A stretch of DNA of 64,000 nt from Bryobacterales bacterium (GTDB lineage: Bacteria; Acidobacteriota; Terriglobia; Bryobacterales; UBA6623). The translations under genes and the position numbers were made by a program. Positions 4,591 to 52,983 of this stretch are shown here, one piece after another. How positions within the stretch are numbered: position 1 is the stretch's first letter; the number at the start of each line of letters is the position of its first letter. The notes beneath the pieces were generated by a model, which made no database searches, was not told the origin of the DNA, and worked only from the letters and a program-made list of their open reading frames with translations. The DNA lies in contig JAPPMB010000114.1 in assembly GCA_028819255.1 (NCBI GenBank), positions 1-64,000 of the forward strand, written 5' to 3'.

Positions 4591-6054
4591 CTATCCGGCG
4601 GTGAGCGTCTCCGCGAGGTTGTTGTGCCCGCCGACGTCGGTCAGCCGGAATTCCCGCCCCTGGAAGGGATAGGTCAGCGTCTCGTGCTCAAGTCCGAGCA
4701 GGGTCAGGATCGTGGCGTGCAGGTCGTGGACATGGACCTTGTTGTCCTGGGCGTTCAGTCCGATCTCGTCCGTCGAGCCGATCACCTTGCCGCCCTTGAC
4801 GCCTCCCCCGGCCATCCACACGGTGAAGCCGTACGGGTTGTGGTCCCGGCCGGCGTTGTTGCGGGCCCCTCCTTCGCCGCCGTCCGTGAACGGCGTCCGG
4901 CCGAAGTCCCCGCCCCATATGACGAGGGTCTCGTCCAGCAGGCCCCGTGTCTTGAGGTCTTCCAGCAGGCCCGCGATCGGAACGTCGACCTGGCTCGCCA
5001 TCGTCTCGTGGTTGTAGTCGATCTGGTTGTGCCCGTCCCAGCCGGGGCTCGCCCCGTTGTTTCCGCAGCCGGAATACAGCTGGATGAAGCGGACTCCGCG
5101 CTCGACCATGCGCCGGGCCAGCAGGCACTGCTTGCCGAATGGCCGGGTCACGGCGTCGTCGAGGCCGTACAGGGCCTGCGTCGACGCGCTCTCGCCGGAG
5201 ACGTCGACCGCTTCCGGAGCCGAGGTCTGCATTCTGAACGCCAGTTCATAGGCCGTCATCCGCGCCTCGAGATCGGTGTCCTCGGAACGTTTTGCGAGGT
5301 GCCTGCGGTTGAACCAGCCCAGCTTGTCCATGAGCAGGCGCTGTCCCTCCCGGTCACGGGAGCCCGGCCTCTGGATGTTGAGGATCGGCGGCCCCTCGCT
5401 GCGCAGGACCGTCCCCTGGTACATCGCCGGAAGGAAGCCCGAACCGTAGGCCGGGGAGCCGGACTTGATTCCGCCGTCCAGCATGACCACGTACGCCGGC
5501 AGGTTCTCGCTCTCCGAGCCCAGGCCGTAGACCACCCACGATCCCAGGCTCGGCCGGCCGATCTGGGCCCATCCGGTGTTCATCCAGTTCTGGCCGGTGA
5601 TGTGCGTGAACCCGTTGTGATGGCAGGACCGTATGACGGCGAGGTCGTCGGCATGGCGCGCGACGTTCGTGAACAGGTCGGAAATCTCGAGACCGGACTG
5701 TCCGTGCCGCGTGAAGGTCCGCGGGGTGCCCAGCAGCGGAACCCTGTCCATGCTCGTGAACTGAAAGTCGCGGTTGCGGAACGATTCCGGAACGGGCTGG
5801 CCGTCGTGCTTCTGGAGCAGCGGCTTGGGGTCGAACGTGTCCAGGTGGCTAGGTCCGCCGTGCATGAAGAGAAAGATCACGCTTCGCGCCCTGGGGGCCA
5901 GCGGAGGGTCCTTCGCCGCGAGCGGGTTGCGCGCGGCCGCCGCACGCCCGTCCCGCGCCAGGATGCAGGAGGCAGCCAGCCCGCCAAAGCCGAGGGCGCT
6001 GCACTCGAGAAACTCGCGCCGCGATCTTGCAGTCGTTTCGTGTGTGGTGAGCAT
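4591..6054 (-). CDS. DUF1501 family exported protein
   Basis: A 487-residue DUF1501 protein, a family related to the alkaline phosphatase/sulfatase fold and common in Planctomycetota and Acidobacteriota. The N-terminus has a Tat-like leader (SRREFLECSALGFGG followed by an Ala-rich region). Family landmarks include FLFMHGGPSHLDTFDPKP near residue 60, WGGDFGRTPF, GRDHNP and GVKGGKVIGSTDEIG. The last of these, then VHDLHATILTLLGLEHE, is the characteristic C-terminus. It begins 8 bp after the upstream PSCyt1 gene on the same strand, so the two form the usual two-gene operon. The substrate is not established for the family. Confidence 0.9.
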   Translation of the reverse strand: MLTTHETTARSRREFLECSALGFGGLAASCILARDGRAAAARNPLAAKDPPLAPRARSVIFLFMHGGPSHLDTFDPKPLLQKHDGQPVPESFRNRDFQFTSMDRVPLLGTPRTFTRHGQSGLEISDLFTNVARHADDLAVIRSCHHNGFTHITGQNWMNTGWAQIGRPSLGSWVVYGLGSESENLPAYVVMLDGGIKSGSPAYGSGFLPAMYQGTVLRSEGPPILNIQRPGSRDREGQRLLMDKLGWFNRRHLAKRSEDTDLEARMTAYELAFRMQTSAPEAVDVSGESASTQALYGLDDAVTRPFGKQCLLARRMVERGVRFIQLYSGCGNNGASPGWDGHNQIDYNHETMASQVDVPIAGLLEDLKTRGLLDETLVIWGGDFGRTPFTDGGEGGARNNAGRDHNPYGFTVWMAGGGVKGGKVIGSTDEIGLNAQDNKVHVHDLHATILTLLGLEHETLTYPFQGREFRLTDVGGHNNLAETLTAG

Positions 6055-6062
6055 GTTTGTCC

Positions 6063-8516
6063 TCAGTCGATGTACACGAATTCGTTCAGGTTGAACAGCA
6101 TCAGGCCGAATTCCTGGGTTCCGGCAGCGGCCAGCATCGCGCGGGCGCTTTCGGTCTCGGCCGGTTCGGGCGGCCGCGAGAATGCCAGCTCCCAGGCTCT
6201 CTCAACGACCAGGTCCGGGCCCTTCTCGGATTCGAGACGCTCGGCCAGCGCCCGGGCCGAGCGCAGCATGAACTCGCTGTTGAGCATTGTCAGGGCTTGC
6301 GGGGCGACCGTCGTGACGGCGCGTCGGCCGCAGCTCGTCGCCGGATCGGGGGCGTCAAAGGTCTTGAACATCGGGTACGGAAACTGCCGCTTGGCGAAGA
6401 TGTAGACACTCCGCCGATCGTGTTCGGATCGGTCCAGGGATTCGGGCCAGTCGTCCTTGTCCCACATTCCCAGCCGCTCTTCCCTCGACAGCGGCGGCAG
6501 GACCGGCCGGCCGCCTGACTTCGGGTTCAGGGTGCCGGCGACCGCCAGGACAGCGTCGCGCAGGCTCTCCGCGTCGAGCCGCCTCCTGTTCATTCGCCAC
6601 AGGAATCGGTTGTCCGGGTCCCGGGCCGCGTTCTCGGCGCGAAACGCGGAGGACATCCGGTATGCGCTCGAGAGCATGATCAGGCGGTGCATCGCCTTGA
6701 TGCTCCAGCCGCTCGACGCGAACTCCGAGGCCAGCCAGTCCAGCAGCTCGGGGTGGGTTGGAGGATCGCCCTGACGGCCGAAGTTGTTCGGCGTGCCGAC
6801 GATTCCCCGCCCGAAGTGTCCCTGCCAGATCCGGTTGACCATCACGCGCGCAAGGAGCGGATTGGAGGGGGCCGTCAGCCATTCGGCCAGAGCCTTGCGC
6901 CGGCCCTCCAGGCCAGGCGCGCTGATTCTCCCGAGGGCCGGGGGCGTCCCTGCGTCGACGGCCTCTCCGGCACGCTGCCAGTCCCCCCTGTCCGTCATCC
7001 GCACCGGGTAGCGCACTTCCGCTGCGCCCAGCACGGTGGCCGTCGGCAACTCGAAATTGGCCGCGAGCGCCGCTTCTCCAAGCTCTTGGATGAGCGTCTT
7101 CCGTCGATCCAGCTCTTCCTGCGTGTAACGCAGGTTCTGGGCGTAGCCTCCGGGGTTCTCGAGCAGGCCGGCCTCTGTCAGGGCGCGCTCCAGCCTCGCT
7201 GCCAGGACCTGCTCCTCGACCGTCCGCTCGGCCTTCGGCCTGCGGAAGGCGTTGACGGTCTCCTCGTCGAAGCCGTCCGCGATCTCGTCCTCGATCCGCA
7301 TTCTGGCCCGTGTCTCGAGGGCCTTCAGCGCCTGCTGGTACTCGAACACCTTGAGCTGCCTCGGATAGGAGGAGAAGTATCCGAACTCCGACATCTTCGT
7401 AGCCACCGGGATGCGGCGGATCTCGGTGCCCTCGAAGAACGCCATCATGCGGTGGTAGTCCTTCTGGGAGACGGGGTCGAACTTGTGGTCGTGGCACCGG
7501 GCACAGCCGATCGTCAGGCCAAGAAAGGCTTCTCCGGTCACGTCGACCGAATCGATCATCCACTCGTACCTGAGCTGGTGGCCGTTCAGGGCCGCCTCGT
7601 GGTAGACGGTTCCGACGGCATAGAGTCCGGTGCCGATGCGGGCTTCGAGATTCCGTCGCTTCTCCTCCGGAATCTCGTACGAGCCCCTCAGCTCGATGTC
7701 GTCGGGCCAGATCTCGTCAGCCGCGACCTGCTCCCGGACGAAGCGGTCGAACGGCTTGTCGTCATTGAAGGACTTGATCACGTAGTCGCGAAAGCGCCAC
7801 GCGTTGGGGTAGTAGATGTCGGTCTCGAAGCCTCCGCTGTCGGCGTAGCGCACAACGTCGAGCCAGTATCGGCCCCATCGCTCGCCGTAGCGCTCGGAGT
7901 CGAGCAGGCGGTCGACCACGTTCCCGAAGGCATCGGGGGAGTCGTCCCGGAGAAAGGCCGCGACCTCGGCGGGCGTGGGCGGCAGCCCGAGCAGATCGTA
8001 GGTGGCACGACGGATCCAGGTTCTGCGGTCCGCCTCGACCGCCGGTTCCAGGCCCTCCCGGGCCATCGCCCGGGCGAGAAACCGGTCGATCGGCGTGTGG
8101 GCCCATCCGCTTCCGTGCGGCGGGACTTCCGGCCGAGCGACCGGCCTGAACGACCACCAGGTTTCGCCCGGCGTCAGGAGTTCTTCAGCCGGCCACTGGG
8201 CGCCCGCATTGATCCACTCCTCCAGCACGCCGATCTCCCTGGCCGAAAGGGGAGGGGACTGCAAGGGCATCGCCAAGTCCCCCTCATGGCGCACCGCCCT
8301 GCTCAGCGTGCTCGCCGCTGCGTTGCCGGGAACCACGGCGGAACCTCGCTTTCCGCCTTGCAGGAGGCCTCCGCGTGTCCGCAGGTCGAGGTCCGACATC
8401 CCGGATTGGCCATGGCAGGCAACGCAGTGGTCCTTGAGAATCCGGACGGCTCGCTCCGGAACGCCAGCGATGGCGACGGGCGCGAGCGTGACAAGGATTG
8501 CGAGAAGCACCGGCAT
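6063..8516 (-). CDS. PSCyt1/DUF1549/DUF1553 planctomycete-type cytochrome protein
   Basis: An 817-residue exported protein. A short Sec-type leader (residues 1-17) precedes a PSCyt1 c-type heme motif CVACH at residues 31-35. DUF1549 follows (about 125-340, including PIDRFLARAMAREG, DLLGLPPTPAEV and CARCHDHKFDPV), then DUF1553 toward the C-terminus (GRGIVGTPNNFGRQGD, LLDWLASEF). The CARCH inside DUF1549 is a second possible heme site. Such proteins pair with DUF1501 proteins, as here. They are thought to act in the periplasm; both substrate and electron partner are unknown. The operon is convergent with the sugar-acid operon. Confidence 0.9.
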   Translation of the reverse strand: MPVLLAILVTLAPVAIAGVPERAVRILKDHCVACHGQSGMSDLDLRTRGGLLQGGKRGSAVVPGNAAASTLSRAVRHEGDLAMPLQSPPLSAREIGVLEEWINAGAQWPAEELLTPGETWWSFRPVARPEVPPHGSGWAHTPIDRFLARAMAREGLEPAVEADRRTWIRRATYDLLGLPPTPAEVAAFLRDDSPDAFGNVVDRLLDSERYGERWGRYWLDVVRYADSGGFETDIYYPNAWRFRDYVIKSFNDDKPFDRFVREQVAADEIWPDDIELRGSYEIPEEKRRNLEARIGTGLYAVGTVYHEAALNGHQLRYEWMIDSVDVTGEAFLGLTIGCARCHDHKFDPVSQKDYHRMMAFFEGTEIRRIPVATKMSEFGYFSSYPRQLKVFEYQQALKALETRARMRIEDEIADGFDEETVNAFRRPKAERTVEEQVLAARLERALTEAGLLENPGGYAQNLRYTQEELDRRKTLIQELGEAALAANFELPTATVLGAAEVRYPVRMTDRGDWQRAGEAVDAGTPPALGRISAPGLEGRRKALAEWLTAPSNPLLARVMVNRIWQGHFGRGIVGTPNNFGRQGDPPTHPELLDWLASEFASSGWSIKAMHRLIMLSSAYRMSSAFRAENAARDPDNRFLWRMNRRRLDAESLRDAVLAVAGTLNPKSGGRPVLPPLSREERLGMWDKDDWPESLDRSEHDRRSVYIFAKRQFPYPMFKTFDAPDPATSCGRRAVTTVAPQALTMLNSEFMLRSARALAERLESEKGPDLVVERAWELAFSRPPEPAETESARAMLAAAGTQEFGLMLFNLNEFVYID

Positions 8517-8914: not shown

Positions 8915-9241
8915 CTAGCCCTTGAGCTTGTTGAAGATTCCGATCGCTAGGACCGCGGCCACACCACCGTTGAGGCCCGAACTCAGGTGACCAATTGCAG
9001 CGTCCAGTGCGCCACCGATGGCGGGGATCGAGCCGACCGCCCCCGAACCTGAAAGCGTTGCGATCGCGATTGCGGTGATCAGGAAGCCACCAGCATCGCT
9101 CGCATCGACAGCCAAGGCAACGTACACTATGCCTCCAATCACCATAACGAGCGTTACGGTTTCCCCCGGAACCAGGTCGGGCATGAAGCCGACGACAAGC
9201 GCTACCAGCGCACCAAGCCCAGTCAAGACTCTCTCAGCCAT
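8915..9241 (-). CDS. small three-span membrane protein, unknown
   Basis: A 108-residue hydrophobic protein with three probable membrane segments (about residues 5-22, 29-46 and 52-70) and a Gly/Ala-rich C-terminal segment ending in NKLKG. A purine-rich GGAGGAA precedes the ATG. The composition is clean and unlike the Arg-rich shadow frames around it, so I accept it as a real gene. I recognise no family. It lies about 1 kb from the duplicated Cache proteins on the opposite strand; no functional link can be shown. Confidence 0.65.
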   Translation of the reverse strand: MAERVLTGLGALVALVVGFMPDLVPGETVTLVMVIGGIVYVALAVDASDAGGFLITAIAIATLSGSGAVGSIPAIGGALDAAIGHLSSGLNGGVAAVLAIGIFNKLKG

Positions 9242-10251
9242 TTCTTCCTCCAGTATTCAGTTGTTGGTTTGTTCCTCCGAACACGCTGTCGTTCGCGCGG
9301 CCTGTGCCGAGAGAACCGCGTGTCGCCGCGAATCTTACCACTTTCCAATTATGGGAAACGGAATCGCTCGTACGATTTTCGGAATTTATGGCGAAAACCG
9401 CTCTCGACCGGAGGGATCCGGGGATGTTCCCGGTGACCAGGCGCTGGTCCGCAGCGACGTCGGCATCGCACCGGACGCCTCAGCCGGGATGCTCACGGTG
9501 CGGCTGCGGCACTTGGCCCGGAGAGGACAGGACCTCGCTTCGACGCCTCGGCTGGAGGCGTTCAACCTGCCTAGGAGGCCGTCTCCGGGCACCGACCTCC
9601 AACTGGTCTGCGAAATCCCGCCGGACGCTCCCGGCGCGTCAGCCTTGGGTTCGACGAGCGGATCACATCAGGCGAAATGGCGAGACCTCGAGATCGATCG
9701 CTTTTCGTGATGCAGAGGCTGCGGGCTGGCCGAAGTCGATATGCGCACCGGTCGTCGTGCAGGACTCCTCGCTGGGTAGGCATGCCGCCGTTCCTGCAGT
9801 GTCAGTCAACTGGGCGGAGGATCCCGCTGCTTCTGGCCAGTTCTGCGCCTGTCCTTCGAGTATCGGTGCCTGCGTGTCCAGAGGGGAGAGCCATCCGGTC
9901 CGATGCCGAGCGCGTTCACGCGGATGCAGGTGGCGCCCCTGCGAGAAGGCCGCGTACCTTGTGAGGGGCACGTGAGCACTCTCGGAAACGCTGTACGGTG
10001 TCAGGTTGAGCGCTTCTCCGTGGCCCGGCGTGTTCACGTCATTGACGATACCGGCGTCTTGCTCTCGCACCGCATGATCCTGAAGGAGCCCCGCATTGGC
10101 GGGAACGGCACCCGAATCTTCACCGCCTCGGATGGGCGGCAGCCCGCCGGATGGGCGGAATCAAATCGGCGGCAGCCGTGGACGTGCTCCGCTCCAAATG
10201 GGAATGCTTGCAGGAGTTGCACCGGACCGGCGCATCTGGCCTAATAAGGCC
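9242..10251. other. 1-kb intergenic region with repeated leader
   Basis: No coding frame here looks real. From about 9970 the sequence is homologous to the stretch just upstream of the second Cache gene (about 12255-12498), so this is the duplicated leader. Copy 1 also contains a short direct repeat of CGGATGGGCGG (10129-10139 and 10148-10158) that copy 2 lacks. Confidence 0.5.
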
Positions 10252-12138
10252 ATGATGTGTACGACACGGTTATTCACGCTTATTGGATTAGTTTGCCTGA
10301 GCACCCTACCGGCTTCGGCGCACCTGTGGCGGGGCTGCGCCGACGACAGTCCCGCGGCCAGCGCTGTCAAGACGCGGGGCGACGTTCGAGCGTTCGTTGA
10401 GTGCGCCGCGCAATACTTGGAAGAGGTCGGACCCGAGGAAGCGCGGCACGCGTTCAACGAGGACGGGCCTTGGAAGCACGGTCAGATTTACGTCTTCGTG
10501 GACGGGCTCGCCAAGTCGGGATTGGAGTCGATGACGTTCGTGTATCCTCCGGACCCCGCCCGCGAAGGCCAGGTCTGGGGCGCATTTATCGACGACTTCG
10601 GGACGGACCTGTTCTACGAGGCCTACCGCATGATGCAACTGGTCGATGCGGGCTGGCTCTACTATTCGATCCTGAATCCGGCCACGGGCGTCGCGAGCCT
10701 CAAGGCTTCGTACGCGATCGAGATCGACTGGGACGGCCATCCCGCCGTGATCGGCGCGGGGATCTACGAGCCCGACTTGCCGTCGACCTGCAGGTCCGAA
10801 GAAGTCAGCGCAAACGGGCTTGGGGACAACCCGAGTCCCGAATCGCTGGCCGCAGTCGTGCGTTGCGCCGCCATGATGCTGGAGTCCGGCGGCTATTCCG
10901 CGCTGGATCAGCTCGAGCACGGCTCCAGGTGGAGCGATGGCGTGAACTATGTGTTCGTGATGGACCTGATGGGCAACCAGTTGGCGACCGGCAACCCGGT
11001 CCGGGTCAACGGGAACGCCCTGCACGAATGGCGCCGTGCCGGGAGACCGGACAGGTTCGGAGGACGGGACATGGTCAGCATGGCGGACGCCTTCGGGGAA
11101 GCCTACGTCTACTATGACGCCTACCACCCCAGGACCGGTGCGGAGCAAGGCAAGGTGGGCTTCCTGAAGCGGGTCGTGGCGAACGGAGTCCCGCTGATCG
11201 TGGGGTCGGGCTACTTCAGCCCCCGAGACCAGTCCTCGGCAAGGATGAGCTGCGCGGAGCGCCCGGTGACTGCGGGAGCGATCCGCTCCCGGGAGCAGAT
11301 TCAGGCATTCGTGCAATGCGCTGCGGAGTACGCGATGGAGCACGGCACTGCGGAGGCGCGCCGGGCGTTCAACGAGGAGGAGATCTGGAAGCACCGCGAC
11401 ATCTACGTGTTCGTGGACGAGGTCAAGCCGTCGGGAGAAGATGCGCTGAGCTACGTATTCCCTCCCGACCCGTCCCGGGAGGATTCGGTCTGGGGGGCCT
11501 CGATCGATGGCTTCGGCACGGATTACTACTTTGAGCTGCACCGCCTGCTTTCGGTCGTGGACTCGGGCTGGATCTACTATGCCTTCACGAACCCGGCCAC
11601 CGGGATCTGGCAGCCGAAGAGTTCCTACGTGATGGAGATTGACTGGGACGGCAACCGTGCGGCCATCGGCGCCGGGTTCTATTCGACGGATCTGCCGGGC
11701 ACCTGCGACCCGGCGGTCGTCAACGCGGCAAGTCTGGAGGAAGACCCGAACGATACGGCGCTGCAGGCGTTCGTGCGCTGCGCGGCGCTCGCGGTCGGGG
11801 CTTCGGGGCTCTTCGGAGGCCGGTCCTTGGAAACGGACCCGCGGTGGAACCACCACTCGATCTATCCGTTCGTGATTGACGAGGCCGACGGCACGATCCT
11901 TTTCAGCAGCAACCCGGCCAGCTTCGACGTTTCGGGGAGAGTCGAGGTGCTGTTCGACGGGCGGGACATGGTTGAAGCGACCGCGACCTTCGGGGAAGTC
12001 TTCTGGTACTACCTGTTCACGGATCCCGAGACCGGAGAACTGGAGGCCAAGACTTCCTTTGTCAAACGCGTCGTCGCGCACGGAATGCCCCTGCTCGTGG
12101 GTGCGGGATACAACCAGCCGCACCATCACGACGAATAG
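10252..12138 (+). CDS. secreted protein of four Cache-like modules, copy 1
   Basis: A 628-residue secreted protein. A Sec signal peptide (residues 1-23, PASA before HLW) would leave a mature N-terminal histidine. The rest is four modules of about 150 residues in an A-B-A-B order (roughly 35-180, 180-335, 340-485, 485-628). Each has the feel of a single Cache fold: IYVFV, a Pro/Asp turn, a helix, GWIYYAFTNPATG, then KSSYV and IGAGFY. Each starts with a VxCAA cysteine and the first three end in a cysteine, suggesting disulfides. There is no transmembrane or signalling domain, unlike most Cache receptors. The C-terminus ends in HHHDE. The start is ATG at 10252 after TAAGG (10255 is the alternative). 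The Cache assignment is pattern-based; function is unknown. Confidence 0.8.
   Translation: MMCTTRLFTLIGLVCLSTLPASAHLWRGCADDSPAASAVKTRGDVRAFVECAAQYLEEVGPEEARHAFNEDGPWKHGQIYVFVDGLAKSGLESMTFVYPPDPAREGQVWGAFIDDFGTDLFYEAYRMMQLVDAGWLYYSILNPATGVASLKASYAIEIDWDGHPAVIGAGIYEPDLPSTCRSEEVSANGLGDNPSPESLAAVVRCAAMMLESGGYSALDQLEHGSRWSDGVNYVFVMDLMGNQLATGNPVRVNGNALHEWRRAGRPDRFGGRDMVSMADAFGEAYVYYDAYHPRTGAEQGKVGFLKRVVANGVPLIVGSGYFSPRDQSSARMSCAERPVTAGAIRSREQIQAFVQCAAEYAMEHGTAEARRAFNEEEIWKHRDIYVFVDEVKPSGEDALSYVFPPDPSREDSVWGASIDGFGTDYYFELHRLLSVVDSGWIYYAFTNPATGIWQPKSSYVMEIDWDGNRAAIGAGFYSTDLPGTCDPAVVNAASLEEDPNDTALQAFVRCAALAVGASGLFGGRSLETDPRWNHHSIYPFVIDEADGTILFSSNPASFDVSGRVEVLFDGRDMVEATATFGEVFWYYLFTDPETGELEAKTSFVKRVVAHGMPLLVGAGYNQPHHHDE
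10418..11255 (+). repeat. 838-bp tract identical to 12665..13502
   Basis: Compared base by base, this tract shows no mismatch with 12665..13502, while sequence just before it (differences at 10415 and 10417) and after it (first difference at 11256) diverges by several percent. It covers most of modules 1 and 2. Confidence 0.9.
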
Positions 12139-12498
12139 CGAGATCCCGAACCGCTGCCGGTACGCTCCGGCTCCTCGCGGCGGCGGCTGAAGACTCACTC
12201 GCGGTCAACGGGGGGACCGGCCATGGGAGTGGAGAAGACATGGGGAGTGCTGCGCGAGCGCTAACGGAAACGCTGGGCGGTGCCAAGTTGGGCGCTTCCG
12301 TGTGGGCCGACGCGTTTACGGAATTGACGATGCCGCCGAGCTTTCCTCCCCATGATCCTGAATGCATCCTGCAACGGCAGGAACGGCGCCCGAATCTTCA
12401 CCGCTTCCAATCGGCGGAATCCATGGATGTCCTCCTCCCCAGAATGAGCAAGCTGGCAGGCCTTGCGCCTGTTCGATGCATTATGGCGAAATAGGGCC

Positions 12499-14385
12499 AT
12501 GACGTGTACGACACGGTTATTTTCGCTTATTGGATTATTCTGCCTGAGCACGATACCGGCTTCGGCGCACCTGTGGCGGGGCTGCGCCGACGACAGTCCC
12601 GCGGCAAGCGCCGTCAAGACGCGGGGCGACGTTCGAGCGTTCGTTGAGTGCGCCGCGCAATTCCTGGAAGAGGTCGGACCCGAGGAAGCGCGGCACGCGT
12701 TCAACGAGGACGGGCCTTGGAAGCACGGTCAGATTTACGTCTTCGTGGACGGGCTCGCCAAGTCGGGATTGGAGTCGATGACGTTCGTGTATCCTCCGGA
12801 CCCCGCCCGCGAAGGCCAGGTCTGGGGCGCATTTATCGACGACTTCGGGACGGACCTGTTCTACGAGGCCTACCGCATGATGCAACTGGTCGATGCGGGC
12901 TGGCTCTACTATTCGATCCTGAATCCGGCCACGGGCGTCGCGAGCCTCAAGGCTTCGTACGCGATCGAGATCGACTGGGACGGCCATCCCGCCGTGATCG
13001 GCGCGGGGATCTACGAGCCCGACTTGCCGTCGACCTGCAGGTCCGAAGAAGTCAGCGCAAACGGGCTTGGGGACAACCCGAGTCCCGAATCGCTGGCCGC
13101 AGTCGTGCGTTGCGCCGCCATGATGCTGGAGTCCGGCGGCTATTCCGCGCTGGATCAGCTCGAGCACGGCTCCAGGTGGAGCGATGGCGTGAACTATGTG
13201 TTCGTGATGGACCTGATGGGCAACCAGTTGGCGACCGGCAACCCGGTCCGGGTCAACGGGAACGCCCTGCACGAATGGCGCCGTGCCGGGAGACCGGACA
13301 GGTTCGGAGGACGGGACATGGTCAGCATGGCGGACGCCTTCGGGGAAGCCTACGTCTACTATGACGCCTACCACCCCAGGACCGGTGCGGAGCAAGGCAA
13401 GGTGGGCTTCCTGAAGCGGGTCGTGGCGAACGGAGTCCCGCTGATCGTGGGGTCGGGCTACTTCAGCCCCCGAGACCAGTCCTCGGCAAGGATGAGCTGC
13501 GCCGACCGCCGGGTGACTGCCGGAGCAGTCCGCTCCCGGGAGCAGATTCAGGCATTCGTGCAATGCGCTGCGGAATACGCGACGGACCACGGCACTGCGG
13601 AAGCACGCCGGGCGTTCAACGAGGAGGAGGTCTGGAAGCACCGCGACATCTACGTGTTCGTGGACGAAGTCCAGCCGTCGGGAGCGGATGCGCTGACCTA
13701 CGTATTCCCTCCGGACCCCTCCCGCGAGGGCTCGCTCTGGGGGACTTCGATCGATGGTTTCGGCACGGATTACTACTTCGAGCTGCACCGCCTGCTTTCG
13801 GTCGTGGACTCGGGCTGGATCTACTATGCCTTCACGAACCCGGCCACGGGGATTTGGCAGCCCAAGAGTTCCTACGTGATGGAGATCGACTGGAACGGCG
13901 CTCGTGCGGCCATCGGCGCCGGGTTCTATTCGACGGATCTGCCGGGCACGTGCGAACCGGGGGTCGTCAACGCGGCACATCTGGAGGAAGACCCGCACGA
14001 GACGGCGCTGCAGGCGTTCGTGCGCTGCGCTGCGCTCGCCGTCGAAGCTTCGGGGCTCTTCGGCGGCCGGTCCTTGGAAACGGACCCGCGGTGGAACCAC
14101 CACTCGATTTATCCGTTCGTGATTGACGAGGCCGACGGCACGGTCCTGTTCAGCAGCAACCCGGTCAGCTTCAGACTCTCGGGGAGACTCGAGGAGCTGT
14201 TCGACGGACGGGACATGGTCGAAGCGACCGCAACCTTCGGGGAGACGTTCTGGTACTACATGTCCACGAATCCCGAGACCGGAGAGGTCGGGGCCAAGAC
14301 TTCGTTCGTCAAACGCGTCGTCGCGCACGGAATGCCCCTGCTTGTGGGTGCGGGATTCTACCCGCCGCACCATCACGACGAATAG
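12499..14385 (+). CDS. secreted protein of four Cache-like modules, copy 2
   Basis: A 628-residue paralogue of the preceding gene with the same signal peptide, the same A-B-A-B modules and the same HHHDE C-terminus. Modules 1 and 2 are almost wholly identical to copy 1 at the nucleotide level, while modules 3 and 4 carry scattered substitutions (for example EYATDH for EYAMEH and QPSGAD for KPSGED). These changes keep the frame and the fold motifs, so both copies are under selection. The start is ATG at 12499; TAGGG lies upstream. A longer in-frame extension to 12463 is not conserved in copy 1 and was rejected. Likely periplasmic ligand binding, by analogy with Cache folds. Confidence 0.8.
   Translation: MTCTTRLFSLIGLFCLSTIPASAHLWRGCADDSPAASAVKTRGDVRAFVECAAQFLEEVGPEEARHAFNEDGPWKHGQIYVFVDGLAKSGLESMTFVYPPDPAREGQVWGAFIDDFGTDLFYEAYRMMQLVDAGWLYYSILNPATGVASLKASYAIEIDWDGHPAVIGAGIYEPDLPSTCRSEEVSANGLGDNPSPESLAAVVRCAAMMLESGGYSALDQLEHGSRWSDGVNYVFVMDLMGNQLATGNPVRVNGNALHEWRRAGRPDRFGGRDMVSMADAFGEAYVYYDAYHPRTGAEQGKVGFLKRVVANGVPLIVGSGYFSPRDQSSARMSCADRRVTAGAVRSREQIQAFVQCAAEYATDHGTAEARRAFNEEEVWKHRDIYVFVDEVQPSGADALTYVFPPDPSREGSLWGTSIDGFGTDYYFELHRLLSVVDSGWIYYAFTNPATGIWQPKSSYVMEIDWNGARAAIGAGFYSTDLPGTCEPGVVNAAHLEEDPHETALQAFVRCAALAVEASGLFGGRSLETDPRWNHHSIYPFVIDEADGTVLFSSNPVSFRLSGRLEELFDGRDMVEATATFGETFWYYMSTNPETGEVGAKTSFVKRVVAHGMPLLVGAGFYPPHHHDE
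12665..13502 (+). repeat. 838-bp tract identical to 10418..11255
   Basis: Partner of the identical tract in copy 1; boundaries are set by the first mismatch on each side. Confidence 0.9.
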
Positions 14386-24886: not shown

Positions 24887-27310
24887 ATGCGGGTTCGCGC
24901 GATTGCGAGAGAGGACAGCCTCGCCCTAGCGAAGTTGCTCCCGAAACGCTTGTCCGCGCTATGTTTGCGTCTTGCGACGCTCCTCTTTCCGCTGCTCTCC
25001 GTTGCTCTGGCTCAGGGGCCTGCTCCGGTTGATGCCAAGGCCGCTGGTCCCGGCCCGGAGCATCGACGGATTCTGGACCAATACTGTGTTGCCTGCCACA
25101 GCGGAGCCGAAGCGACCGCCGGCCTCCGGCTCGATCAGGCCGACATCGAGCGTGTCGACGCGGATGAAGGCATGTGGGAACAGGTCGTCCATAAGCTCCG
25201 CACGGGCACGATGCCGCCGGCAGGCATGCCCCGGCCGCCCGTCTCGGATCGCAAGGCGCTGCTCTCGAGACTGGAAGCGACGCTGGATGAGGCCGCATCC
25301 CGGAATCCGAATCCCGGCCGAACGGAGTCTCTCCGGCGCCTCAACCGCACCGAGTACCGAAACGCCGTTCGAGACCTTCTCGCAGTGGAGATCGATGTCG
25401 AGTCCCTCCTGCCCCACGACGAAAGCGGCCACGGATTCGACAACGTCAATGTCGGCGACCTTTCTCCGACACTGCTGGATCGCTACATTTCGGCCGCACA
25501 GAAGATCGCACGGCTTGCGGTGGGCAGCACGGCGTCATCGCCGCGGACCGAGATAGTCCGCGTCAGACCCGACGTCACCCAGGAGCGGCATGTGCCCGGC
25601 CTGCCGATCGGCTCGCGCGGAGGCGTGTCGATCCCCTTCAACTTTCCACAGGACGGCGAGTATGAGATCCAGATCTGGCTGACGCGTAACCGCAACGAGG
25701 AGATCGAGGGTCTGCGTCGGGCGCATGAGGTGCATCTCATGCTGGACCGCGAGCACGCGCATACCTTCACGGTCCGCCCGCCCGCGGACCGTCTGGACCA
25801 CTCGCAAGTCGACAAGCACCTCAAGATCCGCATGGGAGTGGCGGCCGGCCCCCACCACGTGGCGGTGACGTTCCCCAGGACTCAGTCCTCGCTGCTCGAG
25901 ACGATGCGCCAGCCGACGCAGTCCCGTTTCAACATGCACCGACATCCGCGCACCGCTCCGGCCGTGTTCCAGGTCTCGGTGACGGGGCCCTACGACCCTC
26001 GGGGTGCGGGCGAGACTCCGAGCCGCCGCAGGATCTTCGTCTGCAGTCCGGTAGCGCTCTCCGAGGAGGAAAGCTGCGCGCAGCGAATCCTCTCCCCGAT
26101 CGTGCGCCGGGCGTATCGCCGGCCGGTCGGGTCCGCGGATCTAGCCGGCGCGATGGCCTTCTACCGGGATGGTCGAGGCGGAGCGGACTTTGACGCGGGC
26201 ATCGAGAAGGCCCTGACTGCCGTGCTGGTCAGCCCTGAGTTTCTGTTCCGGGCCGAGCTGGAGCCCGACGGCGTCGAGCCGGGCGGTTCCTACCAGGTGA
26301 GTGACATCGAACTGGCCTCTCGGCTGTCCTTCTTTCTATGGAGCAGCATTCCCGACGAGGAGCTGCTCGATGCCGCCGAGCGGGGCGACCTTGGAACACC
26401 AGCCGGGCTGGAGAAGCAGACACTGAGGCTGCTGGCCGACGCGCGCTCGTCCAACCTTGCCCGGAACTTCGCCGGACAATGGCTCCACCTTCGCAGTCTG
26501 GAGTCGTTCTCCCCGAACGCCAGGCTGTTCCCGGATTTCGACGACAATCTCCGTCAGGCGTTTCGCGAGGAAACGCAGCGCTTCGTGGAGAGCGTGCTCC
26601 GGGAGGACCGCAGCGTTCTGGATCTTGTCCGGGCGGACTACACGTTTCTCAATGAACGCCTGGCCAGGCACTACCGCATCCCGGGGATCTATGGGACCCG
26701 CTTCCGGCGCGTCCGGCTCGATGAACGAAGCAGGCGTGGAGGCCTCCTTCGGCACGGGAGCGTGCTGACCGTGACTTCCTATCCGACACGCACCTCTCCG
26801 GTGCTGCGCGGCACCTGGATTCTGGAGAACATCTTCGGGGCTCCGCCGCCGTCTCCGCCGCCGAACGTGCCCACGCTCGACAACCCCGTATCGGCAAAGC
26901 TTCCGATGCGCGAGCGGCTGCGCGCGCACAGGGACAACCCTGCCTGCGCCAGCTGCCACATGACGATCGACCCCGTCGGCTTCGCCATGGAGAACTACGA
27001 CGCCCTCGGCCGCTGGAGGGACTACATCGACGGGGTGCCCGTCGATGCCACCGGCGGGCTGCCGGGAAGCGAGCAGACGGACCGCGGCGTGGCCGGCCTG
27101 GAGGATGTACTGCTCGAGCGCCCCGAGCTTTTCGTCGGCACGCTGGCTCGAAAACTGCTCACCTTCGCACTGGGAAGGGGCGTGGAATACCATGACGCGC
27201 CTGCAATTCGCCGGATTTTGCGTGAATCCGAGCCGGGAGGCTATCGCTTCTCAGCCCTCGTGCTCGGTATCGTTAAGAGCGTGCCGTTTCAGATGAGGAA
27301 AGCGACATGA
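24887..27310 (+). CDS. DUF1587/DUF1592/DUF1588/DUF1585 planctomycete-type cytochrome protein
   Basis: An 807-residue exported protein with a long basic leader and a hydrophobic segment (residues 22-43). A c-heme motif CVACH lies at 67-71. The core follows the order DUF1587 (LRRLNRTEYRNAVRDLL), DUF1595/DUF1592 (SRLSFFLWSSIPDEELLD, VLVSPEFLFRAEL), DUF1588 (GGLLRHGSVLTVTSYPTRTS) and DUF1585. A second heme motif CASCH at 687-691 precedes MTIDPVGFAMENYD. I prefer ATG 24887 to the TTG at 24881. It overlaps a DUF1552 gene by 4 bp. Presumed periplasmic; substrate unknown. Confidence 0.9.
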   Translation: MRVRAIAREDSLALAKLLPKRLSALCLRLATLLFPLLSVALAQGPAPVDAKAAGPGPEHRRILDQYCVACHSGAEATAGLRLDQADIERVDADEGMWEQVVHKLRTGTMPPAGMPRPPVSDRKALLSRLEATLDEAASRNPNPGRTESLRRLNRTEYRNAVRDLLAVEIDVESLLPHDESGHGFDNVNVGDLSPTLLDRYISAAQKIARLAVGSTASSPRTEIVRVRPDVTQERHVPGLPIGSRGGVSIPFNFPQDGEYEIQIWLTRNRNEEIEGLRRAHEVHLMLDREHAHTFTVRPPADRLDHSQVDKHLKIRMGVAAGPHHVAVTFPRTQSSLLETMRQPTQSRFNMHRHPRTAPAVFQVSVTGPYDPRGAGETPSRRRIFVCSPVALSEEESCAQRILSPIVRRAYRRPVGSADLAGAMAFYRDGRGGADFDAGIEKALTAVLVSPEFLFRAELEPDGVEPGGSYQVSDIELASRLSFFLWSSIPDEELLDAAERGDLGTPAGLEKQTLRLLADARSSNLARNFAGQWLHLRSLESFSPNARLFPDFDDNLRQAFREETQRFVESVLREDRSVLDLVRADYTFLNERLARHYRIPGIYGTRFRRVRLDERSRRGGLLRHGSVLTVTSYPTRTSPVLRGTWILENIFGAPPPSPPPNVPTLDNPVSAKLPMRERLRAHRDNPACASCHMTIDPVGFAMENYDALGRWRDYIDGVPVDATGGLPGSEQTDRGVAGLEDVLLERPELFVGTLARKLLTFALGRGVEYHDAPAIRRILRESEPGGYRFSALVLGIVKSVPFQMRKAT

Positions 27311-28650
27311 TCATCACGAAGAAGGCACTGCCCCGGCGAACGTTCCTCAGGGGAATGCGGGCAACCTTGGCGCTTCCCCTGCTGGATGCGATGGTCCCGG
27401 CGGCCACGGCCCTGGACAGGACGCCGGCCAAGCCGGTGCCGCGTCTGGGATTCGTATTCATACCCATGGGATGCGACCACTCGCGCTGGACGCCGGGCGG
27501 CGGGCCGTTGCTGGACAAGCTGTCTCCCATCCTCACCCCGCTGGAGAACGTCAAGCAAGATCTGATTGTCTTCACGAACTTCGACCTGAAGAACGCCTAT
27601 CCCGGAACGCACTCGACCTCGAACGCCGCCTTCCTGAGCGCGGCGTTCGCGAAGCACACCGAGAGTTCCGACTACTACCTCGGCACGACCGTCGACCAGC
27701 ACGCAGCCCGGGAGATCGGCAAGGACACGCAGCTGCCCTCGCTGGAACTCTCCATGGACCTGCTCCAGACCGTGGGCCAGTGCAACAACGGATACGCCTG
27801 CGTCTATCAGAACAATCTCTCCTGGTCCTCCCCGACTTCGCCGCTTCCCTCGGAGGCGCACCCCAGAACGGTGTTCGAGCGGCTCTTCGGGGAAGGCGGC
27901 AGCGTGGAAGACCGGCGTGCCGCCCTTCGGGAACGGGCGAGTCTGCTGGACTTGGTGCGGGATGACATCGCCCGTCTGAAGGCCAGGCTTGGCCACGCCG
28001 ACCGCGTGCGGGTCGACAGCTATCTCACGAGCATTCGCGAGGTCGAGCGCCAGATCCAGCGAGCCGAGGCCGGGGCGGCTGACAACCCGCTCCCCGACCT
28101 GGACCGTCCCAAGGGCGTGCCCGCAGCGTACGCGGACCACGCCAAGCTGATGTTCGACCTCCAGCTGCTGGCCTACCAGGGAGACATCACAAGGGTCATC
28201 ACCTTCCAGCTCGCCCGCGAGCTCAGCGGCCGCACCTATCCGGAGGTCGGAGTGCCCGATCCGCATCACCCCCTGAGCCACCACGGGAACGATCCCGAGA
28301 AGGTGGAGAAGATCTCGCGGATCAACCGGTTCCACGTCTCGCTGTTCGCCGAGCATCTCGAGAAGCTGAAGGCAACTCCGGATGGCGACGGCTCGCTGCT
28401 GGACCACACCGTTCTGCTTTACGGAAGCGGGATGGGCAATCCCAGCACCCACGACCACGACAATCTCCCGATCCTCGTCGCCGGAGGCGCCGCCTGCGGC
28501 GTCCGGGGCGGCCGCCACGTGCGGTACGACGAGGGCACGCCGCTGGCCAACCTGCACCTGACGCTGCTTGATCGCGTCGGGGTGCGGCTCGAGTCGTTCG
28601 GCGACAGCAACGGCAAGATTGATGACCTGTTCCAGGCCGTTCCCGTGTGA
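27307..28650 (+). CDS. DUF1552 (HXXSHH) family exported protein
   Basis: A 447-residue protein of the HXXSHH/DUF1552 family, the constant partner of DUF1587/1592-type cytochromes. A Tat-like leader (PRRTFLRGMRATLALPLLD) starts the protein. The signature reads HHPLSHH near residue 320, after the region describing ARELSGRTYPEVGVPDP. Late landmarks are LLDHTVLLYGSGMGN and HLTLLDRVGV. Its ATG overlaps the upstream stop (ATGA), and an ankyrin-repeat gene follows after 7 bp. The family resembles DUF1501 in layout and its biochemical function is unknown. Confidence 0.9.
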   Translation: MIITKKALPRRTFLRGMRATLALPLLDAMVPAATALDRTPAKPVPRLGFVFIPMGCDHSRWTPGGGPLLDKLSPILTPLENVKQDLIVFTNFDLKNAYPGTHSTSNAAFLSAAFAKHTESSDYYLGTTVDQHAAREIGKDTQLPSLELSMDLLQTVGQCNNGYACVYQNNLSWSSPTSPLPSEAHPRTVFERLFGEGGSVEDRRAALRERASLLDLVRDDIARLKARLGHADRVRVDSYLTSIREVERQIQRAEAGAADNPLPDLDRPKGVPAAYADHAKLMFDLQLLAYQGDITRVITFQLARELSGRTYPEVGVPDPHHPLSHHGNDPEKVEKISRINRFHVSLFAEHLEKLKATPDGDGSLLDHTVLLYGSGMGNPSTHDHDNLPILVAGGAACGVRGGRHVRYDEGTPLANLHLTLLDRVGVRLESFGDSNGKIDDLFQAVPV

Positions 28651-33898: not shown

Positions 33899-36292
33899 AT
33901 GGCACGATTCTTGCATGTCGGAATCCTGCTGTGGGCTGCAATTCCGCTTTGCGCGTCGCCAGCGAACCGTGAGCTGGACCTCGCCTTCAGGAACGAGGTC
34001 CGACCGCTGCTCGACACCTACTGCTCCAGGTGCCACGGCCCCGAGCTTCGAACGGCCGGCATCGCCTTCTCGGACTTTGCTGATCACGCCTCCGTCGTGA
34101 AGTCCCGCTCGGTCTGGGTCCGCGCGCTCCGTGTGCTTCGCGAGAACGAGATGCCGCCGGCGGATCCTCAGCCGACCGTCGAAGAGCGCCAGACACTCGT
34201 CTCTTGGATCGACGACGCCGTCAACAACCTCGACTGGACCGAGTTCCGGGACCCGGGGGCCGTGACGATCCCACGCCTCAACCGCACGGAGTACAACAAC
34301 ACCATCCGCGACCTCACCGGCCTCGACCTGCGTCCCGCAGGCGCGTTCCCGGTCGATGGCCAGGGGGAGAGCGGGTTTCGCAACGACCGCGACGGGCTCT
34401 TCGTCGCGCCGCTGCTGGCAGCGAAGTATCTTGACGCCGCCAGCCAGGTCGTTGACGTGCTGATCCAGACTAGGGAGTCCGCCGACAGCCTGAACGTGCG
34501 GCTCGAAATCGAGGACTTCCTGCGGACCGAAACCAATCACGCCTTCACGGACTACGGGCTGGACCTCCGAAACTATCAGCAGACGGTCTACCGGTACGTC
34601 TCGTTCCCGCGATTCGGCCGGTACCAGTTCCGCGTGCGCGCTTGGGGCGAGTCCCCGATCGAGCGAGAAGCCCCGGGCGTCACCCTGCGTGTCGCGGGCC
34701 GCATTGTCGGGCAGTCCCATGTCACCGCCGGCGTCGAGGCGCCGCGGGTCTACGAGTTCGAGGCGGACATACCGCGCGGCAGCCATCGCGTCTCGCTCCA
34801 CTGGTTCAAGGCCAGGACGGCCGAGACCAACGACCGCAACCGCCGCCTGGCGGAGGAAAGAGAGCGGCTTGTCGAGGCTGCCAAGGCCGCGGGCGAGAAG
34901 CCGCCGCCCAGGCCTCCCGTGCTCCTCTCGCTCGACTGGGTGGAGATCGAGGAGGACCTCCTGCCCGGACAGGACGGATCCTTGGTCTGGATCGTCGAGC
35001 CCGGTGGCAGGACATCCGAGCGCGAGGCGGCCCGCCGAATCCTTGCCAACTTCGCCCAGCGAGCCTACCGCGGGCCCGTCAAGCGCTCGGAGGTAAAGCG
35101 GCTCACACAACTGTACGAGGGAGCGGCCAGGCGCGGAGAAGCCTTCGAGGGCGCCGTCGGCCTTGGGTTGCGGGCCGTTCTGGTCTCGCCGAGGTTTCTG
35201 TACCGTGCCGAGAGCGCTGAAAGGGCCGGCGGTGAGCGCCGGCTCAGCGATCATGAGCTTGCGTCCCGCCTGTCGTATTTTCTCTGGATGTCAATGCCGG
35301 ACGACGAGCTGATGCGGCATGCGCGGGACGGCGCACTCGGCAGCCCGGCGAAACTTCAAGACCAAGTGGAGAGGATGCTGGCGGATCCGAAGGCGAGGGC
35401 GTTCACATCAGCCTTCATCGGCCAGTGGCTCGGATTCGCCGAGCTCGGCGGCACGATCAAGCCGGATGATGTCGCGTTTCCGGAATTCACGCCGGCGCTG
35501 GGCGAGGCGATGCTGGAGGAGGCCACCTTGTTCTTCGACCGGATCGTCCGCGAAGACCGCAGCCTGTTGGAGCTGCTGGACTCCGAATACACGTTTCTCA
35601 ATGAGGAGCTGGCGATGCACTACGGCATTGAGGGCGTGGTGGGGCGGGAGTTTCGGCCCGTCAGACTTGCCGACCGGAGGCGGGGAGGCGTGCTCGGCAT
35701 GGGAGCGGTTCTGACCGCGACCTCGCTGCCCGTTCGCACCAGTCCGGTTGTCCGTGGCAAGTGGGTGCTGGAGACCATGCTTGGCGAGGAACTGCCGCCT
35801 CCGCCTCCGGACGCCGGAGAGTTGCCCGAACCCGGCGAGAGCTCGAAGGGCATGACCCTCCGGCAGATGCTGGAAGCCCATCGCAGCGAGGAGCGCTGCG
35901 CCGCCTGCCACGACCGCATCGATCCGATCGGATTCGGGCTGGAGAACTTCGACGCCATCGGCCGATGGCGGGACACCGACAACGCTCAGCCAGTGGATGC
36001 GACCGGCATGCTCCCAGGCGGACAGCGATTCGAGGGACCGGTCGAACTCAAGGAGATCCTGCTCGGCCGTCGCGAGGACTTCGCTCGCATGGTGACCTCG
36101 CGCATGTTGAAGTTTGCTCTCGGGCGGAACTTGGAGTACTACGATGAGCCCACCGTACGCGGAATTAGCGAGGCACTGATCGAAAACAACTACCGGGCCT
36201 CGACGCTAGTCGCTAGAATCGTTGACAGCTACCCGTTCAGGTTCAAGCGAACTGGGCCGGAGCGGGATGTCCGGGGGGAGGGAGACCTATGA
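33899..36292 (+). CDS. second DUF1587/DUF1592/DUF1588/DUF1585 planctomycete-type cytochrome protein
   Basis: A 797-residue exported protein, paralogous to the one at 24887. The signal peptide covers residues 1-20 (HVGILLWAAIPLCAS). Heme motifs are CSRCH at 42-46 and CAACH at 667-671, the latter before DRIDPIGFGLENFD. Between them lie DUF1587 (PRLNRTEYNNTIRDLTG), a carbohydrate-binding-like insert with an Arg/Glu-rich helix (about 300-335), and DUF1592 (SRLSYFLWMSMPDDELM). DUF1588 follows (GGVLGMGAVLTATSLPVRTS). ATG at 33899 yields a good leader. It overlaps DUF1552 by 4 bp. Confidence 0.9.
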   Translation: MARFLHVGILLWAAIPLCASPANRELDLAFRNEVRPLLDTYCSRCHGPELRTAGIAFSDFADHASVVKSRSVWVRALRVLRENEMPPADPQPTVEERQTLVSWIDDAVNNLDWTEFRDPGAVTIPRLNRTEYNNTIRDLTGLDLRPAGAFPVDGQGESGFRNDRDGLFVAPLLAAKYLDAASQVVDVLIQTRESADSLNVRLEIEDFLRTETNHAFTDYGLDLRNYQQTVYRYVSFPRFGRYQFRVRAWGESPIEREAPGVTLRVAGRIVGQSHVTAGVEAPRVYEFEADIPRGSHRVSLHWFKARTAETNDRNRRLAEERERLVEAAKAAGEKPPPRPPVLLSLDWVEIEEDLLPGQDGSLVWIVEPGGRTSEREAARRILANFAQRAYRGPVKRSEVKRLTQLYEGAARRGEAFEGAVGLGLRAVLVSPRFLYRAESAERAGGERRLSDHELASRLSYFLWMSMPDDELMRHARDGALGSPAKLQDQVERMLADPKARAFTSAFIGQWLGFAELGGTIKPDDVAFPEFTPALGEAMLEEATLFFDRIVREDRSLLELLDSEYTFLNEELAMHYGIEGVVGREFRPVRLADRRRGGVLGMGAVLTATSLPVRTSPVVRGKWVLETMLGEELPPPPPDAGELPEPGESSKGMTLRQMLEAHRSEERCAACHDRIDPIGFGLENFDAIGRWRDTDNAQPVDATGMLPGGQRFEGPVELKEILLGRREDFARMVTSRMLKFALGRNLEYYDEPTVRGISEALIENNYRASTLVARIVDSYPFRFKRTGPERDVRGEGDL

Positions 36293-37620
36293 CGCGCCAA
36301 CACATTTCCAGACGAGCTGTCCTGCGTGGAATGGGAGTGGCCCTGGCCCTACCGGTCCTCGACGTGACGAAGGCCGCCGGGGCTCCCGCACGCATCGCTC
36401 CGGTCCAGGATCCGGTCCGGCTTGTGACGCTGTTCCATCCGAACGGCGTGTATCCGCCGAACTGGAATCCCGAGGGCGAAGGGCGGGATTACAAGCTCTC
36501 GCGCATCCTCGAGCCTCTCGCGCCGGTTCGGGACGAGGTCAGCGTGATCTCGAATCTTGGAACGGGCGCAAAGGGTCACGTGGGAGCGACGTCCGCGTTC
36601 CTCACCGGAACCCCTCTGCACAAGAAGGCGGCCGGCCGGATCAACACTCCCAGCATGGGCACGTCGCTCGATCAGTTCGTGGCGGAGCGCGTTGGTCATC
36701 GGAACAGCGTCGCCTCACTGGAGGTCGGCTGCGAGCCCCCCCGCTCCGGCGGAGAGAACGGACTGGCGATCTCCTTTGCGAACACGGTGTCCTGGCGTTC
36801 CGACAGCACGAAGGTCGACCCCGAGATCGAGCCGCAGGCCGTGTTCGACAGGCTCTTCGGCATCAGCACGAAGACTCGCCAGCAGCTTGCGGACGACGCA
36901 AGCATCATCGACCACGTGCTCGAGGACGCCAGGGCGTTGCGTGTCCGGGGCAGCGAGGCCGACCGGCGCAAGCTCGACGAGTTCCTCGCATCGGTTCGAG
37001 ACGTCGAGCAGCGGATTCAGCGCAACCTGAATCCGGCCAGCCGGGAAGCCGACTGGAAGCCGCTGGTCGAGCCCGAACTGTATCGCCCCCAAGCGGGCAT
37101 TCCTGCCACGCGCGACGAGCACATTCGCCAGATGCTCGACCTCATCGCTCTGGCGCTCCAGACCAACGCGACGCGGGTGGCGACGTTCATGATGGCGCAC
37201 GGCTTCAGCCGCCAGAACTTCACTTTCCTCGACGGAGTGAGCGGGGACCACCACTCGATTTCGCATCACAAGGAGACCCCGGAGCTCACCGAGCCCTACA
37301 CCATCGTCAGCCAATGGTACGTGTCCCAGCTCGTCTATCTGGTCGAGAGGATGAAGTCGATTCCCGAGCGGAACGGCAGAACGCTGTTGGACAACACGAT
37401 GATCCTCTACGGTTCCGCACTGAAGAACGGAAACGGCCACACGACGCAGGACCTGCCGGTCCTGCTCGCAGGCCGCGGCGGCCGAAAGCTGAGTCCCGGC
37501 CGCAGGATCGTGTTGCCGGAAGAGACGCCGATCACGAACCTGCACCTCACACTCGCCCGGAACATGGGGATCGAGACGGAGCGGTTCAACAACAGCACCG
37601 GTCCGCTCACGGATCTGTAG
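36289..37620 (+). CDS. second DUF1552 (HXXSHH) family exported protein
   Basis: A 443-residue DUF1552 protein, paralogous to 27307..28650. The leader contains SRRAVLRGMGVALALPVLD (Tat-like). The HXXSHH signature is in DHHSISHHKET near residue 325, and LLDNTMILYGSALKNGNGH and NLHLTLARNMGIETERF close the protein. The ATGA overlap with the upstream cytochrome shows translational coupling. Unlike the first set, no ankyrin gene follows. Confidence 0.9.
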   Translation: MTRQHISRRAVLRGMGVALALPVLDVTKAAGAPARIAPVQDPVRLVTLFHPNGVYPPNWNPEGEGRDYKLSRILEPLAPVRDEVSVISNLGTGAKGHVGATSAFLTGTPLHKKAAGRINTPSMGTSLDQFVAERVGHRNSVASLEVGCEPPRSGGENGLAISFANTVSWRSDSTKVDPEIEPQAVFDRLFGISTKTRQQLADDASIIDHVLEDARALRVRGSEADRRKLDEFLASVRDVEQRIQRNLNPASREADWKPLVEPELYRPQAGIPATRDEHIRQMLDLIALALQTNATRVATFMMAHGFSRQNFTFLDGVSGDHHSISHHKETPELTEPYTIVSQWYVSQLVYLVERMKSIPERNGRTLLDNTMILYGSALKNGNGHTTQDLPVLLAGRGGRKLSPGRRIVLPEETPITNLHLTLARNMGIETERFNNSTGPLTDL

Positions 37621-51564: not shown

Positions 51565-52983
51565 TCAGGCCAGGATCTCCCTCACCACTCGAGCCGGGTA
51601 CTGCCCGATCAGCCGCTCGTCCAGCCCGTGCACGTTGAACACCAGCCTTTCGGGATCGAGTCCCAGGAGGTGCAGCATCGTCGCGTGGAAGTCGTGCACG
51701 CTCACCCGGTCCTCGACGGCCTTGTGGCCGATCTCGTCCGTGGCCCCGTGGACGTGGCCTCCCTTGACACCGCCGCCCGCCATCCAGATGCTGAAGCCCG
51801 CCGGCCCGTGGTCTCGTCCGCTCGTTCCGGCCTGTCCGACCTGGGCCAGCGGCATCCGCCCGAACTCACCGCCCCAGATCACCAGCGTCGAGTCGAGCAG
51901 TCCGCGTTGCTTGAGGTCGCGGATTAGCGCAGCCACCGGCTTGTCCGTCTTGCGGCAGGCGTAGCCGAGTTCCCGGTCCAGATTCAGGTGGTTGTCCCAA
52001 ATCTGGTACTCGATGAAGACCTGCACAAACCGGACCCCGCGCTCCACAAGTCTGCGGGCGAGAAGCAGCCGTGCGCCGTAGGCCCGCGTCCGCTCGTCGT
52101 CCATGCCGTACATCTCCTTGGTTGCCTCGCTCTCCGAGGAAAGGTCGGCGACATCCGTCGCCGCCATTTGCATGCGGGCCGCAAGCTCGTAGCTCTCGAT
52201 CCTCGCGTCCAGCTGGGGCTGCATTGGCCGCTGGTCACGGTGGGCCCTGTTCAGCCGCCGCACCAGCGACCGCTCCGCCTCGGCCAGCGGGCCGGGCAGT
52301 TCCTCGTCCCGCCGGAGATTGAGCACCGGCGGGCCCTCGGCCCGGAACTTCGTGCCCTGGTACACCTGCGGCAGCCAGCCGGACTGCCAGTTCTGCAGGT
52401 CGTTGATCGGGTAGCCCTTCGGGTCGTCAAGCACCACGTACCCCGGGAGGTTCTGGTTCTCCGTGCCGAGACCGTAGACGGTCCACGCTCCGAGCGCGGG
52501 ACGGCCGGGCAGCGTGCGTCCCGAGTGCATCAGATAAAGCGACGGCTCGTGATTGAAATGCTCGCCGTGCATGGAGCGGACCAGTGTGATGTCGTCCACT
52601 ACCGTGGCGAGGCCCGGCAGCAGGTCGGAGATCTCCATGCCGCACTGGCCGTGCTTGCGGAACTTGTAAGGGGACGGCATCAGTGTGCCGACCTCGTCGG
52701 TGAATTCCAGCTGGTTGGCGAGGTCTCGCGGTGCCGGAGCACCGGCGTGCTTCTCCAGTTCGGGCTTGTAGTCGAACAGATCGACCTGGCTCGGCCCCCC
52801 GTTCATGAAGAGGTGGATCACCGACTTGGCCTTCGGATCGAAGTGCGGGTCGCGCGGCTTCTGGTCGTAGGTCGTCCTGCCGCCGCTCGCCGAGAGTTCC
52901 CCCTGCAGCAGCCAGGCCAGCGCGGCACCGTGAATGCCGTCTCCGATTCGGGAGAAGAAGTCGCGGCGGTTCGGTCGCTTCAT
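51565..52983 (-). CDS. second DUF1501 family exported protein
   Basis: A 472-residue DUF1501 protein, paralogous to 4591..6054. The N-terminus RRDFFSRIGDGIHGAALAWL is a Tat-like leader. HLFMNGGPSQVDLFDYKP, WGGEFGRMPLAQ, GRDHGPAGFSIWMAGGG and VSVHDFHATMLHLLGLDPER match the family. It begins 7 bp after the PSCyt1 gene on the same strand, repeating the layout of the first pair. Confidence 0.9.
   Translation of the reverse strand: MKRPNRRDFFSRIGDGIHGAALAWLLQGELSASGGRTTYDQKPRDPHFDPKAKSVIHLFMNGGPSQVDLFDYKPELEKHAGAPAPRDLANQLEFTDEVGTLMPSPYKFRKHGQCGMEISDLLPGLATVVDDITLVRSMHGEHFNHEPSLYLMHSGRTLPGRPALGAWTVYGLGTENQNLPGYVVLDDPKGYPINDLQNWQSGWLPQVYQGTKFRAEGPPVLNLRRDEELPGPLAEAERSLVRRLNRAHRDQRPMQPQLDARIESYELAARMQMAATDVADLSSESEATKEMYGMDDERTRAYGARLLLARRLVERGVRFVQVFIEYQIWDNHLNLDRELGYACRKTDKPVAALIRDLKQRGLLDSTLVIWGGEFGRMPLAQVGQAGTSGRDHGPAGFSIWMAGGGVKGGHVHGATDEIGHKAVEDRVSVHDFHATMLHLLGLDPERLVFNVHGLDERLIGQYPARVVREILA

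Follow-up and report, generated by a model that had tools for sequence, protein, structure and literature searches.

Tandem proteins of sCache_2 modules with an export signal in a Bryobacterales bacterium: candidate soluble binders rather than receptors

Two tandem genes in the 64,000-nucleotide stretch of Bryobacterales DNA analysed here (the window) encode proteins that carry an export signal and consist of four sCache_2 modules each, and these proteins are probably soluble, multivalent binders of small carboxylate-bearing molecules, not receptors. Among the extracellular sensor domains of prokaryotes, Cache domains form the largest superfamily (PMC4822843). The genes and their repeats lie as follows.

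10252-12138, + strand: Cache-array protein 1 (P0001), 628 residues, defined by open reading frame, Pfam, module comparison and hydrophobicity
10336-11235, + strand: first AB unit of P0001, two sCache_2 modules (model pLDDT 93.4)
11251-12123, + strand: second AB unit of P0001
12499-14385, + strand: Cache-array protein 2 (P0002), tandem paralogue, 628 residues, defined by open reading frame, Pfam and 94% identity
10418-11255, + strand: 838-base stretch identical to 12665-13502 in the second copy
10070-10144: upstream segment, repeated at 12348-12422 (79%)

Both open frames were found precisely where the preliminary description had placed two tandem 628-residue proteins, and its further claims about them, four modules in A-B-A-B order, a signal peptide, and no membrane or signalling domain, are upheld by module identities, hydrophobicity and Pfam. 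In P0001 a signal peptide (residues ~1-23) is followed by modules A1 (~29-180), B1 (~181-325), A2 (~333-483) and B2 (~484-622). The A-B-A-B order is real because A1 and A2 are 54% identical, B1 and B2 38%, and A and B modules 24-28% (all E ≤ 2.5e-5). The N-terminal signal peptide is the sole strong hydrophobic stretch of P0001 and P0002, its end resembling by eye a signal-peptidase-I site (AxA motif, LPASA followed by H), and no transmembrane helices flank the Cache domains in either protein. Pfam reveals no cytoplasmic output domain (MCP, HK, GGDEF) in the two proteins or in the scanned relatives, and no solute-binding protein (SBP) domain in P0001 or P0002, such domains being seen only in fused relatives. 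Attachment of c-type haem to the modules was considered and rejected, CXXCH being absent by eye from both proteins, and Rfam finds no RNA element near the window Cache genes. Upstream of them a 108-residue open frame (8915-9241, - strand) is hydrophobic and rich in glycine and alanine.

P0001 and P0002 are 94% identical, and outside the 838-base stretch their genes have clearly diverged (dS 0.20 and dN/dS 0.30 for codons 325-629, the 3' part), so that 838 identical bases amid this divergence point to gene conversion or to part of the gene having been duplicated again very recently. By these substitution patterns purifying selection appears to act on the tandem copies, and their 5' half has been homogenised recently. 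The repeated upstream segment indicates the duplication carried along some upstream DNA.

The Pfam matches of the window proteins to sCache_2 and dCache_2 have E-values of 6e-13 to 3e-11 and exceed the curated cut-offs, with sCache_2 (PF17200) scores of 47.5 and 48.5 bits against a cut-off of 25. A family profile built from 82 AB units finds five PDB sequences at E ≤ 1, every one a chemoreceptor Cache sensor (among them 4k08, E 2.4e-14, and 5g4y, E 9e-8), and an alignment of the 82 units gives an AlphaFold model of the P0001 AB unit with pLDDT 93.4, compared with 69 when only eight sequences are used. The model shows the Cache fold, a long N-terminal helix with an α/β PAS-like core, and in Foldseek a single module matches 4k08, 5g4y, 4exo and 2qhk (target-normalised TM 0.69 for 4k08, and 0.74 at 2.3 Å for 4exo). 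Matches to a non-Cache family were looked for in Pfam, PDB and Foldseek and did not occur, and the Cache-like character first proposed for the modules is borne out by domain search, profile and model alike. The long N-terminal helix common to two stacked modules that defines a double Cache is not found in the AB unit. Each module has its own set of modelled helices (H14-31/H33-42 and H168-195), and solved double-Cache chemoreceptor domains superpose over both modules with an rmsd of about 12-15 Å; the AB unit is therefore a tandem of single Caches, not a dCache.

The ligand class is suggested by the pocket. In PscD the carboxylate of propionate is held by Tyr90, His103, Tyr143 and Lys156, between Trp92 and Trp145 (PMC5062169), and these positions were mapped by alignment to the PscD homologue 4k08 (unit numbering, +28 for P0001), the B-module mapping resting on module motifs common to A and B. 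The A-module equivalents are Y52 (85/86 units), F/Y70 (77/86), Y110 (79/86) and K123 (83/86), with Phe mostly replacing both Trp (F54, F112), and the B-module equivalents Y205 (78/85), S/T218 (81/85), Y260 (81/85) and K273 (78/85). The Tyr/Tyr/Lys of sCache_2 is thus kept at 92-99%, the His becoming Phe/Tyr in A and Ser/Thr in B, and the pocket residues rank among the most conserved positions of both module types. Judged by residue identity, the putative carboxylate grip is retained in A and B modules alike and the predicted specificity residues differ. As the His and Trp partners are replaced, the ligand probably bears a carboxylate and is other than acetate or propionate, though conservation of Tyr/Tyr/Lys could be partly structural. 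Cysteines C1, C23, C152 and C177 of the AB unit are almost invariant across the family and are absent from a distant relative (L022); these four may form disulfides in each unit.

The family is amplified. The genome that holds the window has 14 family matches at ~9-11 loci (nine complete genes and two fragments or contig-edge pieces), and genus-mates have 7-14 matches each, in 10/10. The proteins carry 2, 4 or 6 modules, i.e. the AB unit in one, two or three copies. In a single FastTree run on AB units, the C-terminal units of proteins with four or six modules group together as one clade (support 0.975), whose sister comprises the penultimate units and one single-unit protein (support 0.82), indicating ABAB arose largely from one internal duplication. 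At G000:C77:103903-106590 a 233-residue Cache fragment divergently adjoins a full-length family member and is possibly a decaying copy.

Across genomes, the protein family is seen in congeners and in the distant genus g62. It is also present in two other genera of the same taxonomic family, and 1 of 43 sampled genomes from other families of the order has (weak) matches. In a draw of 396 genomes from the phylum, matches at E < 1e-100 are confined to the genome of the window and four genomes of g62, which belongs to a different class and of which one corresponds by coordinates to COS4_bin_49; the other 55 matching genomes encode Cache proteins that are more distantly related. This gap between Bryobacterales and g62 fits horizontal transfer or repeated loss. 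A genome scan returned 77 loci, all from metagenome-assembled genomes (MAGs) named Bryobacterales, Terriglobia, Acidobacteria and a few others and mostly labelled Acidobacteriota, several of them from named sponge projects: the jk18x bins come from Ircinia sponges (PMC9531527), and from their abbreviations the RHO, COS and APA labels presumably denote sponges sampled in PMC8163846. More distantly related proteins with an export signal and either four Cache modules or one also occur in other Acidobacteriota, so that the export of Cache-only proteins extends beyond the sponge lineages. In the genome of another acidobacterium, a frame with a single Cache module (L150:3705-5557, + strand) overlaps, on the same strand, the end of a gene for a Na+:dicarboxylate symporter, and one distant four-Cache gene adjoins a PQQ dehydrogenase. 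Carriage by phage or plasmid was considered and rejected, as no relative lies on a viral contig and there is no plasmid match.

Several relatives extend the array with a second domain.

L045:6871-10476 (- strand), L046, L047-L050, L051, L129, L131: Cache arrays fused to a complete C-terminal SBP_bac_5 (E 1e-55 to 1e-59)
L111:7908-9341, + strand: Cache AB unit joined in frame to Cu/Zn superoxide dismutase (Sod_Cu, E 3e-30; one case)
L114:7173-8033 and L123:7173-8033, + strand: ~200-residue N-terminal domain fused to a Cache AB unit

A C-terminal SBP_bac_3 fusion is also seen (E 7e-8), a second case (L120) falling just under the cut-off, and neither Pfam nor PDB yields a relative of the N-terminal domain in L114 and L123. 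The SBP and superoxide dismutase passengers are extracytoplasmic soluble partners, and no fusion to a kinase or chemoreceptor occurs in the loci read. A further Cache reading frame begins just downstream of the superoxide dismutase fusion. SBP_bac_5 was not found in the genome of the window; it is present in 6/8 genus members, mostly as a Cache fusion, with six of the eight matches in an open fusion frame; of the other two, that of G005 immediately follows a Cache gene, in a broken frame, and that of G004 is a short piece on its own. The DppB-type permease N-domain was detected in none of the eight genus members, including the six with SBP_bac_5, and occurs together with ordinary SBP_bac_5 in both genomes of genus g6. 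An ABC importer is therefore not the obvious end point for a captured ligand, although other BPD_transp_1 permeases are present in all genomes searched and may include an unusual importer.

Gene neighbourhoods yielded no conserved transporter or enzyme partner. The 336 flanking genes, diverse and mostly metabolic, sort into 177 groups, and a conserved operon partner was rejected because most of the recurrent groups consist either of syntenic orthologues or of members of large families (sulfatase, outer-membrane β-barrel protein). Two repeated gene sets accompany the Cache genes in the window.

4591-8516, 51565-55891, 63289-63999: repeated DUF1501 and PSCyt1/PSCyt2/PSD1 genes
24965-28650, 33899-37620: DUF1592/1588-type and DUF1552-type pair family, similar to L045 genes

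Genes of the first set are best known from Planctomycetes; their pairs, one of which lies next to the Cache genes, recur in the window and elsewhere and were rejected as a specific partner of the Cache genes.

In the mechanism we favour, each window gene would give a soluble protein, exported to the periplasm or secreted, in which two covalent AB units provide four independent sCache_2 pockets. Their Tyr/Tyr/Lys grip would accept small carboxylates, probably not acetate or propionate, and the array would capture such molecules outside the cytoplasm. In sister proteins the array is joined to a further soluble binder, a solute-binding protein of the ABC type, or to superoxide dismutase. The symporter and dehydrogenase next to distant relatives are two weak hints of a carboxylate-chemistry context. 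The preliminary description had likewise proposed a soluble ligand binder, which fold and pocket conservation favour as a prediction, and had added that it perhaps presents its ligand to a separate receptor, a part that gained no support. Such a co-receptor, docking when loaded on a transmembrane receptor, e.g. a histidine kinase in the manner of LuxP-LuxQ, would accord with the role of Cache as a sensor domain and with the known stimulation of receptors by solute-binding proteins (PMC9602780). However it has lost ground and is now quite improbable: the MCPsignal domain is found in 0/8 genomes (7/14 reference genomes in a control search), sCache_2 beyond the Cache-array family is absent from the genome of the window, dCache_1 is absent from 5/6 genomes, and no recurrent receptor adjoins Cache genes in the neighbourhoods examined. 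The search covered MCPsignal, sCache_2, dCache_1 and flanking genes, and a histidine kinase may still be a partner.

The fusions bear on a different proposal, in which the array is a targeting or attachment module that, like the carbohydrate-binding modules of enzymes, binds a fixed target (an envelope component, host matrix or immobilised metabolite) and thereby determines where it and its passengers are held. SBP_bac_5, SBP_bac_3, Cu/Zn superoxide dismutase and the N-terminal domain are unrelated in function, and a generic address therefore suits them better than one metabolic job; multivalency and amplification in host-associated bacteria point the same way. We nevertheless consider targeting unlikely, given that the residues of a small-molecule pocket are among the most conserved in A and B, and we know of no Cache domain that anchors to a surface. 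Very unlikely, in our estimate, is a host-interaction factor secreted into sponge tissue, where it would sequester or buffer a host metabolite or be recognised by the host: the MAG origin of the scan loci, several of them from named sponge projects, and the enrichment of Cache Pfams in sponge Thaumarchaeota (PMC7848895) speak for it, but the signal peptide leads only as far as the periplasm.

Capture by a soluble carboxylate binder thus remains our preferred reading, and it has implications for annotation. Cache is treated as a receptor part, and here it is predicted to be an exported binder that stands alone and is repeated, in genomes with no detected chemoreceptor domains, its arrays having also been joined to solute-binding proteins and to superoxide dismutase. 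This would break the inference that a Cache domain denotes a receptor, and would offer a concrete bacterial counterpart to the Cache enrichment of sponge-associated archaea (PMC7848895). Tentatively, and with rather less confidence than we place in carboxylate binding itself, the arrays might represent a new class of extracytoplasmic binding proteins, Cache modules freed from receptors and multiplied into soluble arrays, which sponge symbionts would use for capture or addressing in a general-purpose way, joined to SBPs that lost their ABC importer and shared horizontally between distant lineages.

The closest known systems include the sCache_2 proteins with four modules from other Acidobacteriota (L139/G019 and L140/G446, 587-595 residues) and the single-Cache L144 and L145, which like the window proteins have an export signal (by eye), only Cache modules and no signalling domain. 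They differ in their canonical His- or Asn-Pro and Trp pocket residues and few copies, and L139 is about 21-28% identical to the window family and lacks the four cysteines. ABC-type solute-binding proteins (SBP_bac_5, SBP_bac_3) are, as proposed here, exported soluble ligand binders of a different fold, joined directly to the array in relatives but not in the window proteins. With dCache_2 (PF08269), thought to derive from sCache_2 duplication (PMC4822843), the family has in common two consecutive sCache_2-derived modules, although each window module carries a separate long N-terminal helix and superposition is poor. Finally, the sCache_2 chemoreceptor sensors PscD (5G4Y), Adeh_3718 (4K08) and those of Vibrio parahaemolyticus (2QHK/4EXO) have the same fold and PF17200 domain, but there a single module forms part of the extracytoplasmic region of an MCP, whereas the window family comprises predicted exported arrays of 2-6 modules free of transmembrane and signalling domains, with the pocket His and Trp replaced and four conserved cysteines in each AB unit.
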